From: Thalassospira sp. TSL5-1
GTDB lineage: Bacteria; Pseudomonadota; Alphaproteobacteria; Rhodospirillales; Thalassospiraceae
Assembly: GCF_001907695.1 (NCBI RefSeq)
Contig: NZ_KV880638.1
Location: 186,882-250,881, forward strand
Direction of reading: 5' to 3'
Length of the DNA stretch: 64,000 bases
Part shown: positions 11,895 to 17,595 of the stretch, one piece after another
How positions within the stretch are numbered: the first letter of the stretch is position 1
How the letters are laid out: every line of letters begins with the position of its first letter
Translations under genes and position numbers: made by a program
The notes under the pieces: generated by a model
Databases searched by the model: none
What the model saw: only the letters and a program-made list of their open reading frames with translations
Told to the model about the DNA's origin: nothing

Positions 11895-12926
11895 TTAGCG
11901 ACGTCCCTGTTTTTGCCGTGCAACCGTGACTTTGATCATGGCGCGATGGGCCAGGGTTTCTGGAATGGCAAGGCCGCTTTTGCAGTCTTTTTCCGCTTCC
12001 AGAAAAATTTGCAGGGCACGCTGAATATGGGCGAGCGGCCAATAATTCAAGTTTGCCTTGAACTGATCTGCTGCTTTGAAAAACAGCGGCGGTCGCAAGG
12101 ATTTCATTGCCTGATCGACAGATGTTCCCTGTGCCACCTGGCCTTTGACCAGATGCAGTTTTTGAAAATAGCCAATCATCATGCGTAGCGCACCCACCGG
12201 ATTAAGGCCTTCCTCGACCAGCCGAGTTAAGGCGAGATCCAGATTGGCAACATTGCCCGCCGAAACCGCCTGAAGCACATCATCATAATGACGGGCGGAG
12301 CTGTCGCCGATACAGGCCATCGCATCGCTGAGCGAGACGCGCTGCTGGTTTAAGGCATAAAGTGCGAGTTTTTGTAGCTCGTTGCGGGAAATCATGCGGT
12401 CACTGCCCAGATTTGCAACAAGATAGCGCACGGCATCACTCTCAATGGCAAGGCCATGTTCTTCCATTACCGACCGGATCAGACCCTCTAGGTCGCGACC
12501 CGAATCGGCATAACAGGGCAGGGCCATGCCATTGCCGGCCTTTTCCACGGCCTGACGCAGCTTTGAGCGTGCCGGCAGGCTCCCCGACTCGCAAATGATC
12601 AGGGCGTCTCCTGCCGGGTGTTGCAGGAAGTCTGCAATCACAGGCGCCTGGGCATCGCCAATATCGCGCAGGCGGACAACACGCCGACCGCCGCCAAAGC
12701 TGATGGCAGCGGCTTCGTCACGCAGGCGACTCCCGTCTTCCTTTAAGTGTGCCGGGCCCAGTTCAACAACGCGGAACGGGTCTTTGAGATCCTCAACAAC
12801 GGTTTTTGCCAATTGTGCGCCACGCTCGCGCACCAAGCCTTCGTCTTCACCATAGATAAGGACGAGCTGTGCCTTTGCGTCCGGAGACCGCAGAAAGGAA
12901 TCGACCTGGGCTGCTTTGAGTTTCAT
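11895..12926 (-). CDS. holA: DNA polymerase III subunit delta
   Basis: The delta subunit of the clamp loader opens the beta sliding clamp. The 343-residue sequence shows the HolA pattern: KLKAAQVDSFL, LVLIYGEDEGLVRERG at the degenerate AAA+ nucleotide region, then a helical domain with VRYLVANLGSDRMISRNELQKLALY and the C-terminal collar. Delta lacks a working P-loop, as here. It is the last gene of the minus-strand run DUF3576, leuS remnant, lptE, holA, 18 bp after lptE. Confidence 0.93.
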   Translation of the reverse strand: MKLKAAQVDSFLRSPDAKAQLVLIYGEDEGLVRERGAQLAKTVVEDLKDPFRVVELGPAHLKEDGSRLRDEAAAISFGGGRRVVRLRDIGDAQAPVIADFLQHPAGDALIICESGSLPARSKLRQAVEKAGNGMALPCYADSGRDLEGLIRSVMEEHGLAIESDAVRYLVANLGSDRMISRNELQKLALYALNQQRVSLSDAMACIGDSSARHYDDVLQAVSAGNVANLDLALTRLVEEGLNPVGALRMMIGYFQKLHLVKGQVAQGTSVDQAMKSLRPPLFFKAADQFKANLNYWPLAHIQRALQIFLEAEKDCKSGLAIPETLAHRAMIKVTVARQKQGRR

Positions 12927-12944
12927 GGCGTCCCGGTTTCAAGT

Positions 12945-13454
12945 TTATTCTGCGCTACGAATGCCTATGGCGACCTGATTGGAGATTTGTCGGGCGAGGT
13001 TCCTCGCGGCGTCTTCCTGTGCGGTTGATTTTGCTTCCAGGCTGGCAAAGTCGGATTGAACGATATTGTAGCTTGTTCTGGCGCGGACCTTACCTTTGCG
13101 CAGAATTTTGGTATCCGAAATCCGAATCAGCTGATAATTGCCCGTCAGGATATAGTCCGAAACGGTTGCTTCATTTTGTTTGGTAAAACCAAGATCGACA
13201 TTTGTTTCGTCAAGATCAACCTTGAGTTCATAAAGCGGAGCCTGGTTTTGGCTTTCTGATCTCAGGTTTTCCAGCAGGATATTGCGTGTCAATTGCCCGA
13301 CACGATTTTCCATCATGTCAACCTGGACGGCCGCAAGAGGATCCGTGCCGGTTTCTCCGACCTGATTTTTCGCATAGAGCGGCTGAAAACCACATGCCCC
13401 CAGGGCCGGGAGGGCAAGGCACAAAAACAACGTCATGATCGGGCGCAGCAACAT
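12945..13454 (-). CDS. lptE: LPS assembly lipoprotein LptE
   Basis: Outer-membrane lipoprotein that plugs the LptD barrel in lipopolysaccharide export. From the ATG at 13454 the protein opens with a signal peptide ending in the lipobox LGAC, with the lipidated Cys21, then GFQPLYAK, the usual LptE opening. GGAG lies about ten bases before the ATG, which also sits only four bases after the stop of the upstream gene. The frame is open to 13514 but would add a charged leader before the signal. 169 residues. Family members are poorly conserved; the holA neighbour supports the call. Confidence 0.9.
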   Translation of the reverse strand: MLLRPIMTLFLCLALPALGACGFQPLYAKNQVGETGTDPLAAVQVDMMENRVGQLTRNILLENLRSESQNQAPLYELKVDLDETNVDLGFTKQNEATVSDYILTGNYQLIRISDTKILRKGKVRARTSYNIVQSDFASLEAKSTAQEDAARNLARQISNQVAIGIRSAE

Positions 13455-13458
13455 TAGG

Positions 13459-14001
13459 TCAGGACTCCGTTTGATCCGGCGATTTGATAGCTCCATAGCG
13501 ATACAATAATTCATGCCCGATGTAAGGACAAAATAGCCTCAAAAGTTCAATAAAGCACAACTGTAGCGGATTTTGCCGATTCGCGGGTGATTTTCGCAAA
13601 TATTGAAACATCTTGCGCAATTCAGCCAGTGCGATGTTAAAGCGGTATTGGTCTATTTGCCGGGTGACGGCCAAGACCCTGTTTGATCGGACCGCCGATG
13701 CAACATCAAAGATATCGTCTTTTGCGTTGTTTGCCTTTTCGGTTTTTTCCGGTTGGCAAAAATGTGACCAAACCAGCCGTAACCAGCGCCATTGTGCAAC
13801 AAGGTCTTCCAGTTCCAGATGCCTTGGCCGGTAAACTGGTACATCGGCAAGAACGGCAAGGGCGAGAACGTCTAGACCGACCTCTTTGGCGAGATCATCA
13901 AGGCCTGATATTTCGTCAGGCAACAGAATAGGGGCTGTTTCTGGTGCTGCAGGTGCCGGGTCTAGATCACCTGCCTTGGCATCGCTGATTTTGACAGGCA
14001 T
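13459..14001 (-). CDS. Remnant of leucyl-tRNA synthetase C-terminal region
   Basis: An open frame of about 180 codons that looks like the last quarter of LeuS in decayed form. In order: KISDAKAGDLDP at residues 4-15, where KMSKSxxNxVDP would stand; GLD and LADVP (42-55), where GAD and LSDSPP occur; QWRWLRLVW (70-78) for AWRFxxRxW; TRQIDQYRFNIAL (113-125) and ELLRLFCPYIGHEL (152-165) of the anticodon-binding domain. The HIGH motif, editing domain and about 600 N-terminal residues are absent. It lies between DUF3576 and lptE, the slot of leuS in related genomes as I know them. The frame continues to 14223 across a terminator. No good ribosome site precedes the ATG at 14001. Cannot be an active synthetase; it may be a relic or a repurposed domain. 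Confidence 0.65.
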   Translation of the reverse strand: MPVKISDAKAGDLDPAPAAPETAPILLPDEISGLDDLAKEVGLDVLALAVLADVPVYRPRHLELEDLVAQWRWLRLVWSHFCQPEKTEKANNAKDDIFDVASAVRSNRVLAVTRQIDQYRFNIALAELRKMFQYLRKSPANRQNPLQLCFIELLRLFCPYIGHELLYRYGAIKSPDQTES

Positions 14002-14136
14002 GGGGGGGATGGCCGGGAAGGCAAGAAATGAGTGCTGAAAGTCGGTATGTATCGATTTTACCAATTGTGAACGGAAGATTTGCGTCTGCCGGTTTGGATT
14101 TTGTCCGTTTGGCAGAGGGTTTAAAATCCGGTCGGT

Positions 14137-14176
14137 AAAAAACAATCCCCATCGCTGCGAGAGCGAATGGGGATTG
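14137..14176 (-). terminator. Terminator of the DUF3576 gene
   Basis: Stem CAATCCCCATCGC (14143-14155) against GCGAATGGGGATTG (14163-14176) with one unpaired base. Six As at 14137-14142 give a U-run on the minus strand. It lies inside the extended frame of the LeuS remnant, arguing that the remnant starts downstream of it. Confidence 0.85.
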
Positions 14177-14231
14177 TATGTCGGTGAGGTATAGCGTGTG
14201 TGCATGACAGGCACAAAAGCCATTCCCGAAA

Positions 14232-14795
14232 TTACTGGTTATTGGCGCTATCAATACGCAGCTGACGTGCACGGGTCAGAATGGAATCTTCCATTGCTGT
14301 TACGGTTTTCGGGTCAACCACAGCATTGGCCCATTCATTACCGCCGGCACGGACCTGACGGAAAATCGAAACCTTGATGGCATCAGAGCGCAAAGCCGTA
14401 CCCAGAATATAGCCGGTAATTTTGAACCGCTCATTGGGGGTTTCAGCCGGGCTGTACCAGTCGGTAATAATGACACCGCCAAACGGATCCGCAGAATTGA
14501 GCGGCATGAAAGACAGGGTATCCAGTGTTGCGCGCCACAAATAACTGTTCACACCAATGCCTGAACCACCCTGCTGCTTTTTGCTGTCGCTGCCAAACAG
14601 GTTGAGACCTTCATCTCCGAAAATGCCGCCCTGTTTTTTCATATCTGCACGGGTGGCGGAACGACCGAGAATACGTTCATTGCCGGGTGCTGACCCCGGA
14701 TAATTGTCATAGTCAGATTGGGATGCACCGCTGCAGGCTGCAAGTGTTGTAACCAGGGTGCAGGCGGCGATGATTTTCAATTTTGAAACAGACAC
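14232..14795 (-). CDS. DUF3576 domain-containing lipoprotein
   Basis: 187-residue protein with an N-terminal signal peptide and lipobox LAAC (Cys21), so a lipoprotein exported to the periplasm. The mature part contains NSYLWRATLDTLSFMPL, a segment characteristic of DUF3576, then a beta-rich region and a C-terminal helix. DUF3576 proteins occur in alphaproteobacteria, usually beside leuS; their role is unknown. It is followed by a strong terminator, so it is probably its own transcription unit. Confidence 0.85.
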   Translation of the reverse strand: MSVSKLKIIAACTLVTTLAACSGASQSDYDNYPGSAPGNERILGRSATRADMKKQGGIFGDEGLNLFGSDSKKQQGGSGIGVNSYLWRATLDTLSFMPLNSADPFGGVIITDWYSPAETPNERFKITGYILGTALRSDAIKVSIFRQVRAGGNEWANAVVDPKTVTAMEDSILTRARQLRIDSANNQ

Positions 14796-15041
14796 GTTGT
14801 ACGGCCTTCTGATCTGTCAATGGCAATGCTGAGCGCACTATAAGCAGCAATTGCCAGGAGAGCAAAGAAAACAAGTGTGTCCTTTTAGCCACAGCGGAGC
14901 AAAAATGTTACATCGTCGCCACAGTTTGGTTGACGGGATGGCAAAATGCTGGCTCCATAGCGTCGAACCGGGCGGCAGGAAATTGTCGTTCACACTTCAA
15001 ATAACCGCTTAAGCGGGTTGAAGAAGACGTTGAGGGAAAAG

Positions 15042-16112
15042 ATGAAAAAGATTCTTATCGCGACCAGCGCACTCGTCGCTGTTGCAGCTGCAGGCCAGGC
15101 ACAGGCCTCAGAACCGATTAAATTGTCGGTTGGCGGTTACATGGAACAGTGGGCAGGCATTGCCTCCCAGGATGATGGCTTTGACAACATCAATGCTTTC
15201 CAGTCTGATACCGAAGTTTATTTCTCGGGTTCGACCACCCTGGACAACGGCATCGAAATCGGTGCGATGATCCAGCTTGAAGGTGAAACCTCGCAGGACC
15301 AGATCGACGAACAGTACCTGTACGTTAATGGTTCTTTCGGTCAGTTCCGTATTGGTGAAGGCGATGGCGCTGCTGCTGCTATGGGCATCACCGCTCCGGC
15401 AGTTGGCCCGGTTGGCGTTAACGATGGTGACCTGTCAAACTGGGTTTCTGTCTCCATGCCGGATACCGTTTTTGATGATGGCGATGCACCGAAGGTAACC
15501 TACTACACCCCGTTCATGGCTGGCTTCCGCGTTGGTGTTTCTTACACCGACAGCGACCAAGCTAAAAATGACGGTTCGGCTGGTACGACTGCTAAGCCGA
15601 AGACCGCTGGTCAGAACACGACCACTGGTATGCCGGTTACCTCGCTTGGTCTTGAATACCGTGGTGATTTTGATGGCGTAAGCCTCGGTCTCTCCGCTGT
15701 TGGCGAGCATAAAGGTGAAGGTGAATGGTTCAGCATTGGTACCAATGTTGGCTTCGGTAACTTCACCGTTGGCGCATCTTATGGCCAGAAAGACAAAGAC
15801 TACGGCGTTAACGAAAACGTCACCGGTAAAGCTGATGACACCACCGGCTTTGACATCGGTGTAGCATATTCGATGGATGCCGCTCAGGTTTCCCTGTCTT
15901 ATGCACATGGTGACATCGTAACCAACACGCAGGGCGCTGCTTCAACCGGTTCCGACATCGACACCGTCGACCTCGGCCTGCGTTATCAGCTTGGTGCTGG
16001 CGTGAGCTGGAGAACTTCGGTTTTCTGGTTTGACAGCGATGATAAAGCTGCTGGCGGTGCTAACGACAATGATGGTTTCGGTGCTGTTACCGGTCTCCGT
16101 CTAGACTTCTAA
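15042..16112 (+). CDS. Outer-membrane porin 1
   Basis: General diffusion porin of 356 residues. MKKILIATSALVAVAAA with a likely cleavage after residue 22 (AQA/SEP) is a Sec signal peptide. The mature part has alternating beta strands, the conserved opening IKLSVGGYMEQWAG, and the C-terminal GAVTGLRLDF ending in Phe, the mark of outer-membrane barrels. The start is ATG 15042 with GAGGGA five bases before it. It is paralogous to the porin 410 bp downstream. The codon choice (GGT, CTG, ACC, GTT) looks like that of a highly expressed gene. Confidence 0.93.
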   Translation: MKKILIATSALVAVAAAGQAQASEPIKLSVGGYMEQWAGIASQDDGFDNINAFQSDTEVYFSGSTTLDNGIEIGAMIQLEGETSQDQIDEQYLYVNGSFGQFRIGEGDGAAAAMGITAPAVGPVGVNDGDLSNWVSVSMPDTVFDDGDAPKVTYYTPFMAGFRVGVSYTDSDQAKNDGSAGTTAKPKTAGQNTTTGMPVTSLGLEYRGDFDGVSLGLSAVGEHKGEGEWFSIGTNVGFGNFTVGASYGQKDKDYGVNENVTGKADDTTGFDIGVAYSMDAAQVSLSYAHGDIVTNTQGAASTGSDIDTVDLGLRYQLGAGVSWRTSVFWFDSDDKAAGGANDNDGFGAVTGLRLDF

Positions 16113-16275: not shown

Positions 16276-16373
16276 TTAATAGAACACTTTCTGATTTTCG
16301 AGCTTCATTTCTAATGGTTCTTTGTCTGAATTTCAGATCATTTTCTCGAGTAAATAGCCTTTGATAATGTAAT

Positions 16374-16393
16374 GTGTGATTTTTTTATCACAC
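16374..16393. promoter_or_regulatory. Inverted repeat in porin 2 leader
   Basis: GTGTGAT and ATCACAC separated by six Ts. It resembles a Crp/Fnr-type dyad, but the spacing between TGTGA and TCACA is eight, not six, so a Crp site is doubtful. Confidence 0.4.
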
Positions 16394-16429
16394 GGCAGGC
16401 AAAAACATCACATTTTCGATGTCTTTTAA

Positions 16430-16458
16430 TTGACCGAAGGTCAGTTATCGGGTTAATT
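16430..16458 (+). promoter_or_regulatory. Predicted promoter of porin 2 with overlapping operator
   Basis: TTGACC (-35, 16430-16435), 17-bp spacer, TTAATT (-10, 16453-16458). The second dyad TGACC-GAA-GGTCA (16431-16443) covers the -35 box, the usual position for a repressor. The 5' leader to the ATG would be about 60 nt. Confidence 0.5.
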
Positions 16459-16527
16459 GGCTCTCAGCAAACAGAAAGATGTTCTGCTAACCAACGCCAA
16501 CAGCGTTCGTTTTCAATGAGGGAAAAG

Positions 16528-17595
16528 ATGAAAAAGATTCTTGTTGCGACCACGGCACTTGTCGCCGTTTCCGGTTTCGCCGTTTCTGCCAGCGCGTCCG
16601 AAAAAATCAAACTTTCGGTCGGTGGTTACATGGAACAGTGGGCCGGTATCACCAAGCAGGATGACGCATTCGACAATAAGAATGCTTTCCAGTCCGATAC
16701 CGAAATTCACTTCAAAGGTGCAACCACCCTTGATAACGGCATCGAAGTTGGTGCGGTTGTTGAGCTCGAAGGTGAAACCTCGACCGACCAGATCGACGAA
16801 CAGTACCTCTATATCAATGGTTCGTTCGGTCAGATCAAATTGGGTGAAGACGACAGCGCAGCTGACGACATGGGCATTACTGCTCCGTCTGTTGGTCCGG
16901 TTGGTGTGAACGATGGCGACCTGACCAACTGGGTTGACGCTTATCTGCCCGATACCGTGCCGAGCTCGGGTGATAACCCCAAAGTCACCTATTTCACCCC
17001 GGTTATGGGTGGTTTCCGCGCTGGTGTGTCTTACACCGACAGCAACGAATCCAAAAATAATCTTTCCGGTGGCGTTAACAACCGTCAGAGCACAACCGAA
17101 GGTAAACCGGTTGTTTCCCTTGGTCTGACCTATGACCATGACTTTGATGGTGTTGCTTTGGGTCTGTCCGCTGTTGGCGAACATGCCGGTGAAGGTGCAT
17201 GGTATGGCCTTGGTGCCAATGTCGGCTTTGGTAACTTCACCGTTGGTGGTTCCTGGGGCCATATTGAAGACGATTATAACCGCACTTCGCGTGACGGTAA
17301 GGGCAACGAAACCGACACCTATGACATCGGCGTAGCCTACGCAATGGATGCGGCCAGTGTCTCTCTGACTTACGCATATTCCGATTACGGTAACCGTTCG
17401 ACCTCTGCTATGAGCAACGGCATTTCCCCGGCATCAACCGGTAAAATGAACACGGTTGACCTTGGCCTTGCCTATCAGCTGGGTGCTGGCGTTGCATGGA
17501 AATCGTCGATCTTCTGGTTCGATGATGACAATGACAACAATGCTGCTGACAATGACGGTTACGGTGCTGTTACCGGTCTGCGTCTCGACTTCTGA
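16528..17595 (+). CDS. Outer-membrane porin 2
   Basis: 355-residue porin, paralogue of the preceding gene. Signal peptide MKKILVATTALVAVSGFAVS with cleavage likely after ASA (residue 23), mature start SEKIKLSVGGYMEQWAG, conserved DQIDEQYLYINGSFGQ and C-terminal GAVTGLRLDF. ATG 16528 with GAGGGA upstream; the frame is open back to 16372 but those codons are regulatory DNA. The surface-loop stretches after residues 145 and 250 differ most from porin 1, as expected for loops. Independent promoter and terminator. Confidence 0.93.
   Translation: MKKILVATTALVAVSGFAVSASASEKIKLSVGGYMEQWAGITKQDDAFDNKNAFQSDTEIHFKGATTLDNGIEVGAVVELEGETSTDQIDEQYLYINGSFGQIKLGEDDSAADDMGITAPSVGPVGVNDGDLTNWVDAYLPDTVPSSGDNPKVTYFTPVMGGFRAGVSYTDSNESKNNLSGGVNNRQSTTEGKPVVSLGLTYDHDFDGVALGLSAVGEHAGEGAWYGLGANVGFGNFTVGGSWGHIEDDYNRTSRDGKGNETDTYDIGVAYAMDAASVSLTYAYSDYGNRSTSAMSNGISPASTGKMNTVDLGLAYQLGAGVAWKSSIFWFDDDNDNNAADNDGYGAVTGLRLDF

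Follow-up and report, generated by a model that had tools for sequence, protein, structure and literature searches.

The DNA analysed here, referred to as the window, is a stretch of 64,000 nt from Thalassospira sp. TSL5-1 (GCF_001907695.1, contig NZ_KV880638.1, positions 186,882 to 250,881 of the forward strand). On its minus strand, a short gene related to leucyl-tRNA synthetase (LeuS), which we refer to as the remnant, lies between a DUF3576 gene and the lptE-holA pair. The genes and the elements within the remnant are as follows:

14232..14795, minus strand: DUF3576 gene (PF12100, E = 7.3e-43)
13459..14223, minus strand: remnant leuS gene, 254 codons plus stop, with a homolog in 29/29 genomes of the genus
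14140..14193, minus strand: conserved motif YTSPTYNPHSLSQRWGLF near the N-terminus, probably homologous to the start of LeuS (Thermus EKYNPHAIEAKWQRFWEEK), with which it is collinear; pN/pS of its YxSPEY part 0.12
14143..14176, minus strand: terminator-like hairpin CAATCCCCAT...ATGGGGATTG, lying within the coding sequence
14137..14142, minus strand: run of six T directly behind the hairpin
13969..13992, minus strand: KMSKS-like relic KISDAKAG; consensus of the relatives AKVTTD, signature lost
13768..13884, minus strand: protein core EVGLDVLALAVLADVPVYRPRHLELEDLVAQWRWLRLVW, corresponding to the YGADT..LSDSPP..AWRF region of LeuS; strongest protein-level selection
13606..13647, minus strand: anticodon-binding-domain helix YRFNIALAELRKMF, placed by profile alignments
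13492..13545, minus strand: final LeuS-like stretch LLRLFCPYIGHELLYRYG, which overlaps the promoter-like block
13503..13531, minus strand: promoter-like element TTGTCC-N17-TATTGT, facing lptE-holA
12945..13454, minus strand: lptE, assigned by position and homology; start taken as ATG 13454, 4 nt past the remnant stop
11895..12926, minus strand: holA (DNA polymerase III delta; TIGR01128, E = 3.7e-56), in conserved order

The holA product scores 190.8 bits on TIGR01128 (cut-off 80). The lptE product has only a sub-threshold match to Pfam LptE (E = 0.014) and is homologous to the ORF behind leuS in 20/20 relatives. The remnant is tightly packed between its neighbours. Its start, ATG 14223, lies 8 nt past the DUF3576 stop in the window's genome, and the first possible start lies 1–31 nt past that stop among the 29 genus genomes. 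At the other end, the remnant stop and the lptE start share ATGA in 21/29 genomes and TGATG in 1/29, abut in 2/29, and are separated by 4 nt in the five genomes of the window's own clade. Upstream of DUF3576, at 15018–16112 and 16372–17595 of the window on the plus strand, the ORFs read as two similar porin-like genes in tandem; a porin likewise lies upstream of DUF3576 in Cereibacter.

The original prediction placed a 180-codon frame directly ahead of lptE, without naming the strand, which is minus. The frame is open, ends at 13459 and reads through the peptides quoted, but 14001 is an inner ATG: the minus-strand frame stays open up to ATG 14223, with an alternative start at ATG 14205 giving 248 codons. 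In the homolog alignment the stretch ahead of 14001 holds the conserved residues YxSxxYNPHSLxRxWG. The earlier reading overlooked this conserved N-terminus as well as the hairpin and the promoter-like block.

Descent from leucyl-tRNA synthetase

The LeuS landmarks previously read in this frame were borne out by HMM, profile-profile and structure searches. The window protein matched NCBIfam leuS_bact with E = 6.6e-6 (24.5 bits, profile positions 618–759 of 843). In a scan of 23 members that contained it, 22 matched at E ≤ 1, the best with 4.7e-7. Pfam returned nothing better than E = 0.13 for the window protein, and thus no significant family; SRP19, an RNA-binding family, was matched at chance level by two of the 23 members (best E = 0.065). 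HHalign of the remnant against native-LeuS profiles gave a probability of 97.1 and E = 4.9e-11 over 135 columns. When a profile of the 29 homologs was searched against PDB sequences, LeuRS entries were matched (best 2.1e-8, Thermus), and the sole two other matches had E-values of 1.1 and 1.5. Pairwise identity to native LeuS is 20–29% by BLAST, which found the relationship in 19 of 20 loci.

Predicted structures point the same way. Two AlphaFold models, the first of them of the window protein, had a mean pLDDT of 78.5 and 84.7 and a pTM of 0.79 and 0.84, and are confident for the protein core. In Foldseek searches against the PDB at E ≤ 0.001, all six matches of the window model and all 18 of the second model were LeuRS entries, from the Thermus, E. 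coli and Neisseria enzymes. The top matches had E-values of 2.6e-4 and 2.8e-4 with query TM-scores of 0.41 and 0.43 over 147 and 157 columns; query TM-scores overall reached only ~0.4–0.5, mostly over ~150–160 columns. Judged by these profiles and models, the remnant is derived from the native alphaproteobacterial leuS.

The original prediction further held that about 600 N-terminal residues, with the HIGH and editing parts, were missing. The HIGH signature and the CP1 editing domain are indeed absent, the alignments spanning the part from KMSKS to the anticodon-binding domain and, weakly, the N-terminus; the remnant is, however, probably no plain N-terminal truncation. Since residues 2–20 and 651–791 of Thermus LeuRS align in order, as two segments of the same PDB profile alignment, some 630 residues would be missing internally. 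We grade the N-terminal homology as probable because that segment scores 3.9 bits by itself. The Y-N-x7-W spacing at the very start of the remnant equals that in native leuS genes, and native LeuS profiles did not recover the N-terminal segment of the remnant.

The C-terminal domain of LeuS is likewise missing, and the KMSKS signature is absent, the window reading KISDA and the consensus of the 29 homologs AKVTTD. The remnant therefore resembles native bacterial LeuS (TIGR00396) in operon position, in the region from KMSKS to the anticodon-binding domain and probably in an N-terminal YN...W helix, but it lacks HIGH, CP1 editing, KMSKS and C-terminal domain and measures ~205–258 residues rather than ~850. 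It missed the curated TIGR00396 cut-off (24.5 bits vs 548.4). The remnant is no functional leucyl-tRNA synthetase, and we file it as a synthetase-derived non-catalytic protein rather than as LeuS; without HIGH and KMSKS, tRNA charging should be impossible for it.

The native leuS slot and the working enzyme

We examined the slot in 20 genomes of the order where the remnant profile matched native LeuS. Homologs of lptE and holA follow native leuS in 20/20, and DUF3576 precedes it in 19/20 (it was not found in L080), so that the order DUF3576-leuS-lptE-holA, expected from related genomes in the original prediction, was found in 19 of the 20; annotation gives the same gene order in Cereibacter. 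Slot synteny and LeuS descent agree that the native leuS was gutted in place.

The prediction that the cell must carry LeuS elsewhere, perhaps acquired, also held. Only one LeuS in the genome lies above the family cut-off: it has 1007 codons, is located on another contig and groups with an actinobacterial LeuS. At E ≤ 1e-40, every one of the 29 genus genomes has a single LeuS locus; all are of the long type, and 28 score above the cut-off; in G020 the gene is interrupted by a contig end and falls below it. Across the class, the long type is matched at E ≤ 1e-100 by 12 of 289 genomes. Strong matches outside the genus come from five genomes of 0.6–1.4 Mb in two alphaproteobacterial families, f52 and f48. 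The two plasmid records that match it best are those of Nocardia and Tsukamurella (47–48% identity over 98–99%).

A LeuS tree was built from 48 rows, among them 12 Thalassospira rows (two being one gene), 21 native rows and one actinobacterial row. Thalassospira and native rows fall on opposite sides (SH-aLRT 100 each), and Thalassospira LeuS joins f52 and f48, then Tsukamurella (SH-aLRT 99). By these sequence affinities, the working LeuS is of a foreign, Actinomycetota type; since the tree has one actinobacterial row, donor and direction of transfer are given no more finely than that. That Thalassospira and the f52 and f48 genomes (L127–L131 and L137; G413, G185, G181, G312, G316) share the long LeuS may reflect one transfer or several. 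None of these five genomes, which are 83–88% complete, gave a remnant-size match: four had nothing at E ≤ 1, and the match in the fifth lies inside the long LeuS frame. The remnant therefore does not simply follow the enzyme.

A leuS of 839 codons is also carried by plasmids of Rhizobiaceae, L140 (Sinorhizobium sp. B11) and L150 (Agrobacterium tumefaciens G3/79), and the Sinorhizobium copy groups with non-native LeuS in the tree. Immunity to agrocin 84 is conferred by a second LeuS, and by analogy these plasmid genes are possibly of that immunity type.

Constrained elements at the two gene ends

Synonymous change is suppressed at two places in the remnant, one near each end. The first is the hairpin, which coincides with the codons for NPHSLxRxWGF, lies 29–67 nt past the DUF3576 stop and is formed in 29/29 genus genomes, with an energy of -22.7 kcal/mol in the window and -18.8 to -24.2 kcal/mol across the genus. 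Its pS is 0.089 vs ~0.5 in the core. Under synonymous resampling its z-score ranged from -3.05 to -5.08 (p ≤ 0.005 in 29/29), while the lowest mean z among the other resampling windows (at least 10 gap-free genes) was -1.4, in one that overlaps the hairpin. Its codons are Pro CCC in 29/29 and Gly GGG in 24 or GGA in five, all minority codons. Support from covariation is thin, as it comes down to a single C-G to U-A double change common to five genomes, which may be one inherited event, and six of the 12 stem pairs are invariant. Only in L009–L013, the window's clade, is the hairpin succeeded by five to seven T in a row; the other 24 genomes have weaker T-rich tails. A stock terminator scan, which gave five terminator-like sites, does not list the hairpin; a bulge may hide it. 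An Rfam search of 12900–15000 found nothing within the gene and a single match at chance level (E = 1.3) elsewhere in that range.

The hairpin is not a repeated element, the exact pattern having a single match in its own genome, the site itself. Nor was it inherited from native leuS: it is absent in 19 native starts, where energies range from -0.1 to -10.6 kcal/mol. In five of 19 loci with intact leuS (L071, L072, L075, L078, L081), the most stable hairpin in the DUF3576-to-leuS interval was 2 to 4 sd beyond shuffles, in a comparison that favours the observed sequence, scanned in finer steps. Given such hairpins in some relatives with intact leuS, DUF3576 may have been insulated before the remnant arose.

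The second element is the promoter-like block in the last codons (pS 0.149). TTGYCC and a 17-nt spacer are present in 29/29 genomes, followed by TATTGT in 27, TATCGT in L014 and TGTTGT in L036. Compared with the sigma-70 -35 and -10 hexamers, the block has four of six letters in each, with a spacer of 17 nt where 16–18 nt is usual. A CCT codon of usage 0.17 recurs in 17/17 representatives, and synonymous resampling yielded the motif in ~1.3% of draws in each of the seven genes tried, among them L036, which has no exact motif. With one further exact match in its own genome, vs two for a reversed control pattern, the motif is by itself unspecific, and the case for this putative promoter lies in its conservation. 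A stock promoter scan that wants at least 9 of 12 letters does not list the block, which has 8. We rejected inheritance of a promoter from native leuS, finding no copy with fewer than two mismatches in the stretch scanned at 20 loci. An lptE frame extended into the remnant was also rejected as the source of the low synonymous change at the 3' end, as that longer frame occurs in 6/29 genomes and the block in all. Part of the conservation seen in ELLRLFCPYIGHEL may be due to the promoter-like block.

Retention, selection and proposed function

The remnant frame is intact in 29/29 genus genomes, one per species (a search of the family returned the same 29), with 214–290 codons from stop to stop and proteins down to 30% amino-acid identity to that of the window. 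In a search of 317 genomes of the order, all 29 of the genus and 64 of the 288 others matched. All 64 matches lie inside frames of 637–1086 codons, so that no remnant-size match was found outside the genus; 224 genomes gave no match, and a very diverged copy could escape. Plasmid records held no remnant. The original prediction had left a choice between recent loss and a retained, repurposed domain. Recent loss is not supported and was rejected, along with sequencing error, on the strength of the intact homologs in 29/29 genomes, while retention agrees with the proposed check for purifying selection: pooled dN/dS over seven close pairs was 0.325 (95% 0.27–0.39), well under 1. The neighbours gave 0.145 (DUF3576) and 0.103 (LptE), the remnant evolving 2–3 times faster.

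We propose that a replaced housekeeping gene has been kept as a small non-catalytic LeuS-fold protein with insulating gene ends, a reading to which we assign a probability of about 0.55. An ancestor of Thalassospira would have gained an Actinomycetota-type leuS at another locus, and leucine charging would have passed to it; the native leuS in its DUF3576-leuS-lptE-holA operon would then have lost the catalytic, editing and C-terminal domains and not been erased. We infer this order of events, as we do RNA binding, termination and promotion below. What is left is a protein of ~205–258 residues, probably a LeuS-like N-terminal helix and, after it, the segment that starts at the dead KMSKS strand and takes in the first anticodon-binding-domain helices.

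In cis, the hairpin would end DUF3576 transcripts and a promoter in the last codons would drive lptE-holA, both genes being essential in other bacteria, and the remnant gene would thereby insulate DUF3576 from lptE-holA. On the sequence evidence, we think termination at the hairpin and a restart for lptE-holA somewhat better than an even bet. In trans, the product would be a small helical protein that binds RNA, most likely tRNA. In its ancestral role this part of LeuS binds tRNA or other RNA, and we advance such binding by a non-catalytic LeuS-fold protein tentatively, at rather less than even odds.

If the DNA or RNA alone mattered, as DUF3576 terminator, translational coupling to lptE and lptE promoter, the protein could be idle. 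The nucleotide-level constraint at both gene ends would fit this, as would the tight coupling (a start 1–31 nt past the DUF3576 stop, the lptE ATGA overlap in 21/29) and linkers almost free of constraint. We nevertheless consider it unlikely. Regional pN/pS values, from 13 partly non-independent pairs, were 0.12 for YxSPEY, which lies ahead of the hairpin, 0.12 for EVG..HRP and 0.09 for LHL..WRWLRDVW, compared with 0.35 for the AIA helix, 0.57 for the KMSKS-like stretch and 0.62 and 0.71 for the two long linkers. The 40-codon core between the two elements thus combines a pN/pS of 0.09–0.12 with a normal pS of ~0.5, which is best explained by selection on the protein, and it is also the part that is confidently modelled.

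The remnant might instead be a partner of the acquired LeuS, binding tRNA-Leu or the enzyme and supplying a local tRNA-binding part for host tRNAs. Long LeuS and remnant do coincide in 29/29 genomes, and LeuRS-I and LeuRS2 are described as binding tRNA-Leu without normal charging (PMC9437257); the five f52 and f48 genomes with the same LeuS type and no remnant-size match, at 83–88% completeness, make a partnership improbable. A further idea, to which we give slim odds, is that the remnant protein binds the hairpin of its own message, or weighs the hairpin against tRNA-Leu, thereby controlling how much transcription reads through from DUF3576 into lptE-holA. Such an autogenous circuit, if true, would have protein, terminator and downstream promoter encoded within the same few hundred bases.

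Decay of a pseudogene whose frame is open by chance we hold to be very improbable. Fast evolution and unconstrained linkers speak for it, as do pairs inside L020/L025/L029, with dN/dS of 0.83–1.6 across two methods; L020/L025 gave 0.86 (95% 0.43–2.17), compatible with no constraint, and this clade may be losing constraint. Against it, the frame is broken in 0/29 genomes down to 30% identity, the other forward frames hold 6–16 stops each in the four genes counted, and the pooled dN/dS is not near 1, its interval lying below 0.4. That a helical protein not derived from LeuS converged on class I synthetase landmarks is barely credible: low pairwise identity to native LeuS (20–29%) would allow it, but profile, synteny and fold searches all give LeuS first. 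No defence family was matched.

Several known systems resemble parts of this arrangement. The DALR type of anticodon-binding domain is that of ArgRS and CysRS. Human DALRD3, a DALR anticodon-binding domain protein that helps to target tRNA-Arg for methylation (PMC7237682), employs a synthetase-type anticodon-binding domain outside charging, as proposed for the remnant; it differs in being human, of DALR type and with its role on tRNA-Arg shown. LeuRS-I of Sulfolobaceae, which still makes leucyl-adenylate, and LeuRS2 of haloarchaea, which charges weakly, both bind tRNA-Leu (PMC9437257), and haloarchaeal LeuRS forms are described as duplicated and non-canonical (PMC3436685). These too are second, non-canonical LeuS-derived proteins next to a working LeuS, but they keep the catalytic domain and tRNA-Leu binding, whereas the remnant retains only part of the tRNA-binding body, with putative binding. 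The gene for GluQ-RS, finally, lies downstream of dksA behind a terminator (PMC3542578), and so is a synthetase-derived gene in the transcription unit of another gene, comparable to the remnant with its putative terminator; unlike the remnant, GluQ-RS stems from the catalytic domain, and its terminator stands between genes, not in frame. Among the papers searched, none mentions both leucyl-tRNA synthetase and Thalassospira, and at title and abstract level we found nothing on the remnant gene.

That a foreign synthetase can displace the resident one is known; how the old gene fares afterwards has, to our knowledge, rarely been observed. In this case an intermediate has become fixed throughout the genus, with the catalytic body lost, a fragment of the tRNA-binding body under selection and gene ends that resemble control elements. 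In culturable marine bacteria, it offers a clean test of whether a synthetase fragment can persist as a non-catalytic protein.

In some close pairs among L020, L025, L029, L022 and L031, dS of DUF3576 (14232–14795 in the window) greatly exceeds that of the remnant and LptE: 0.57 vs 0.06 and 0.04 in L020/L025, and 1.1 vs 0.12 and 0.27 in L022/L031. This excess suggests that recombination has occurred, the breakpoint separating DUF3576 from the remnant.
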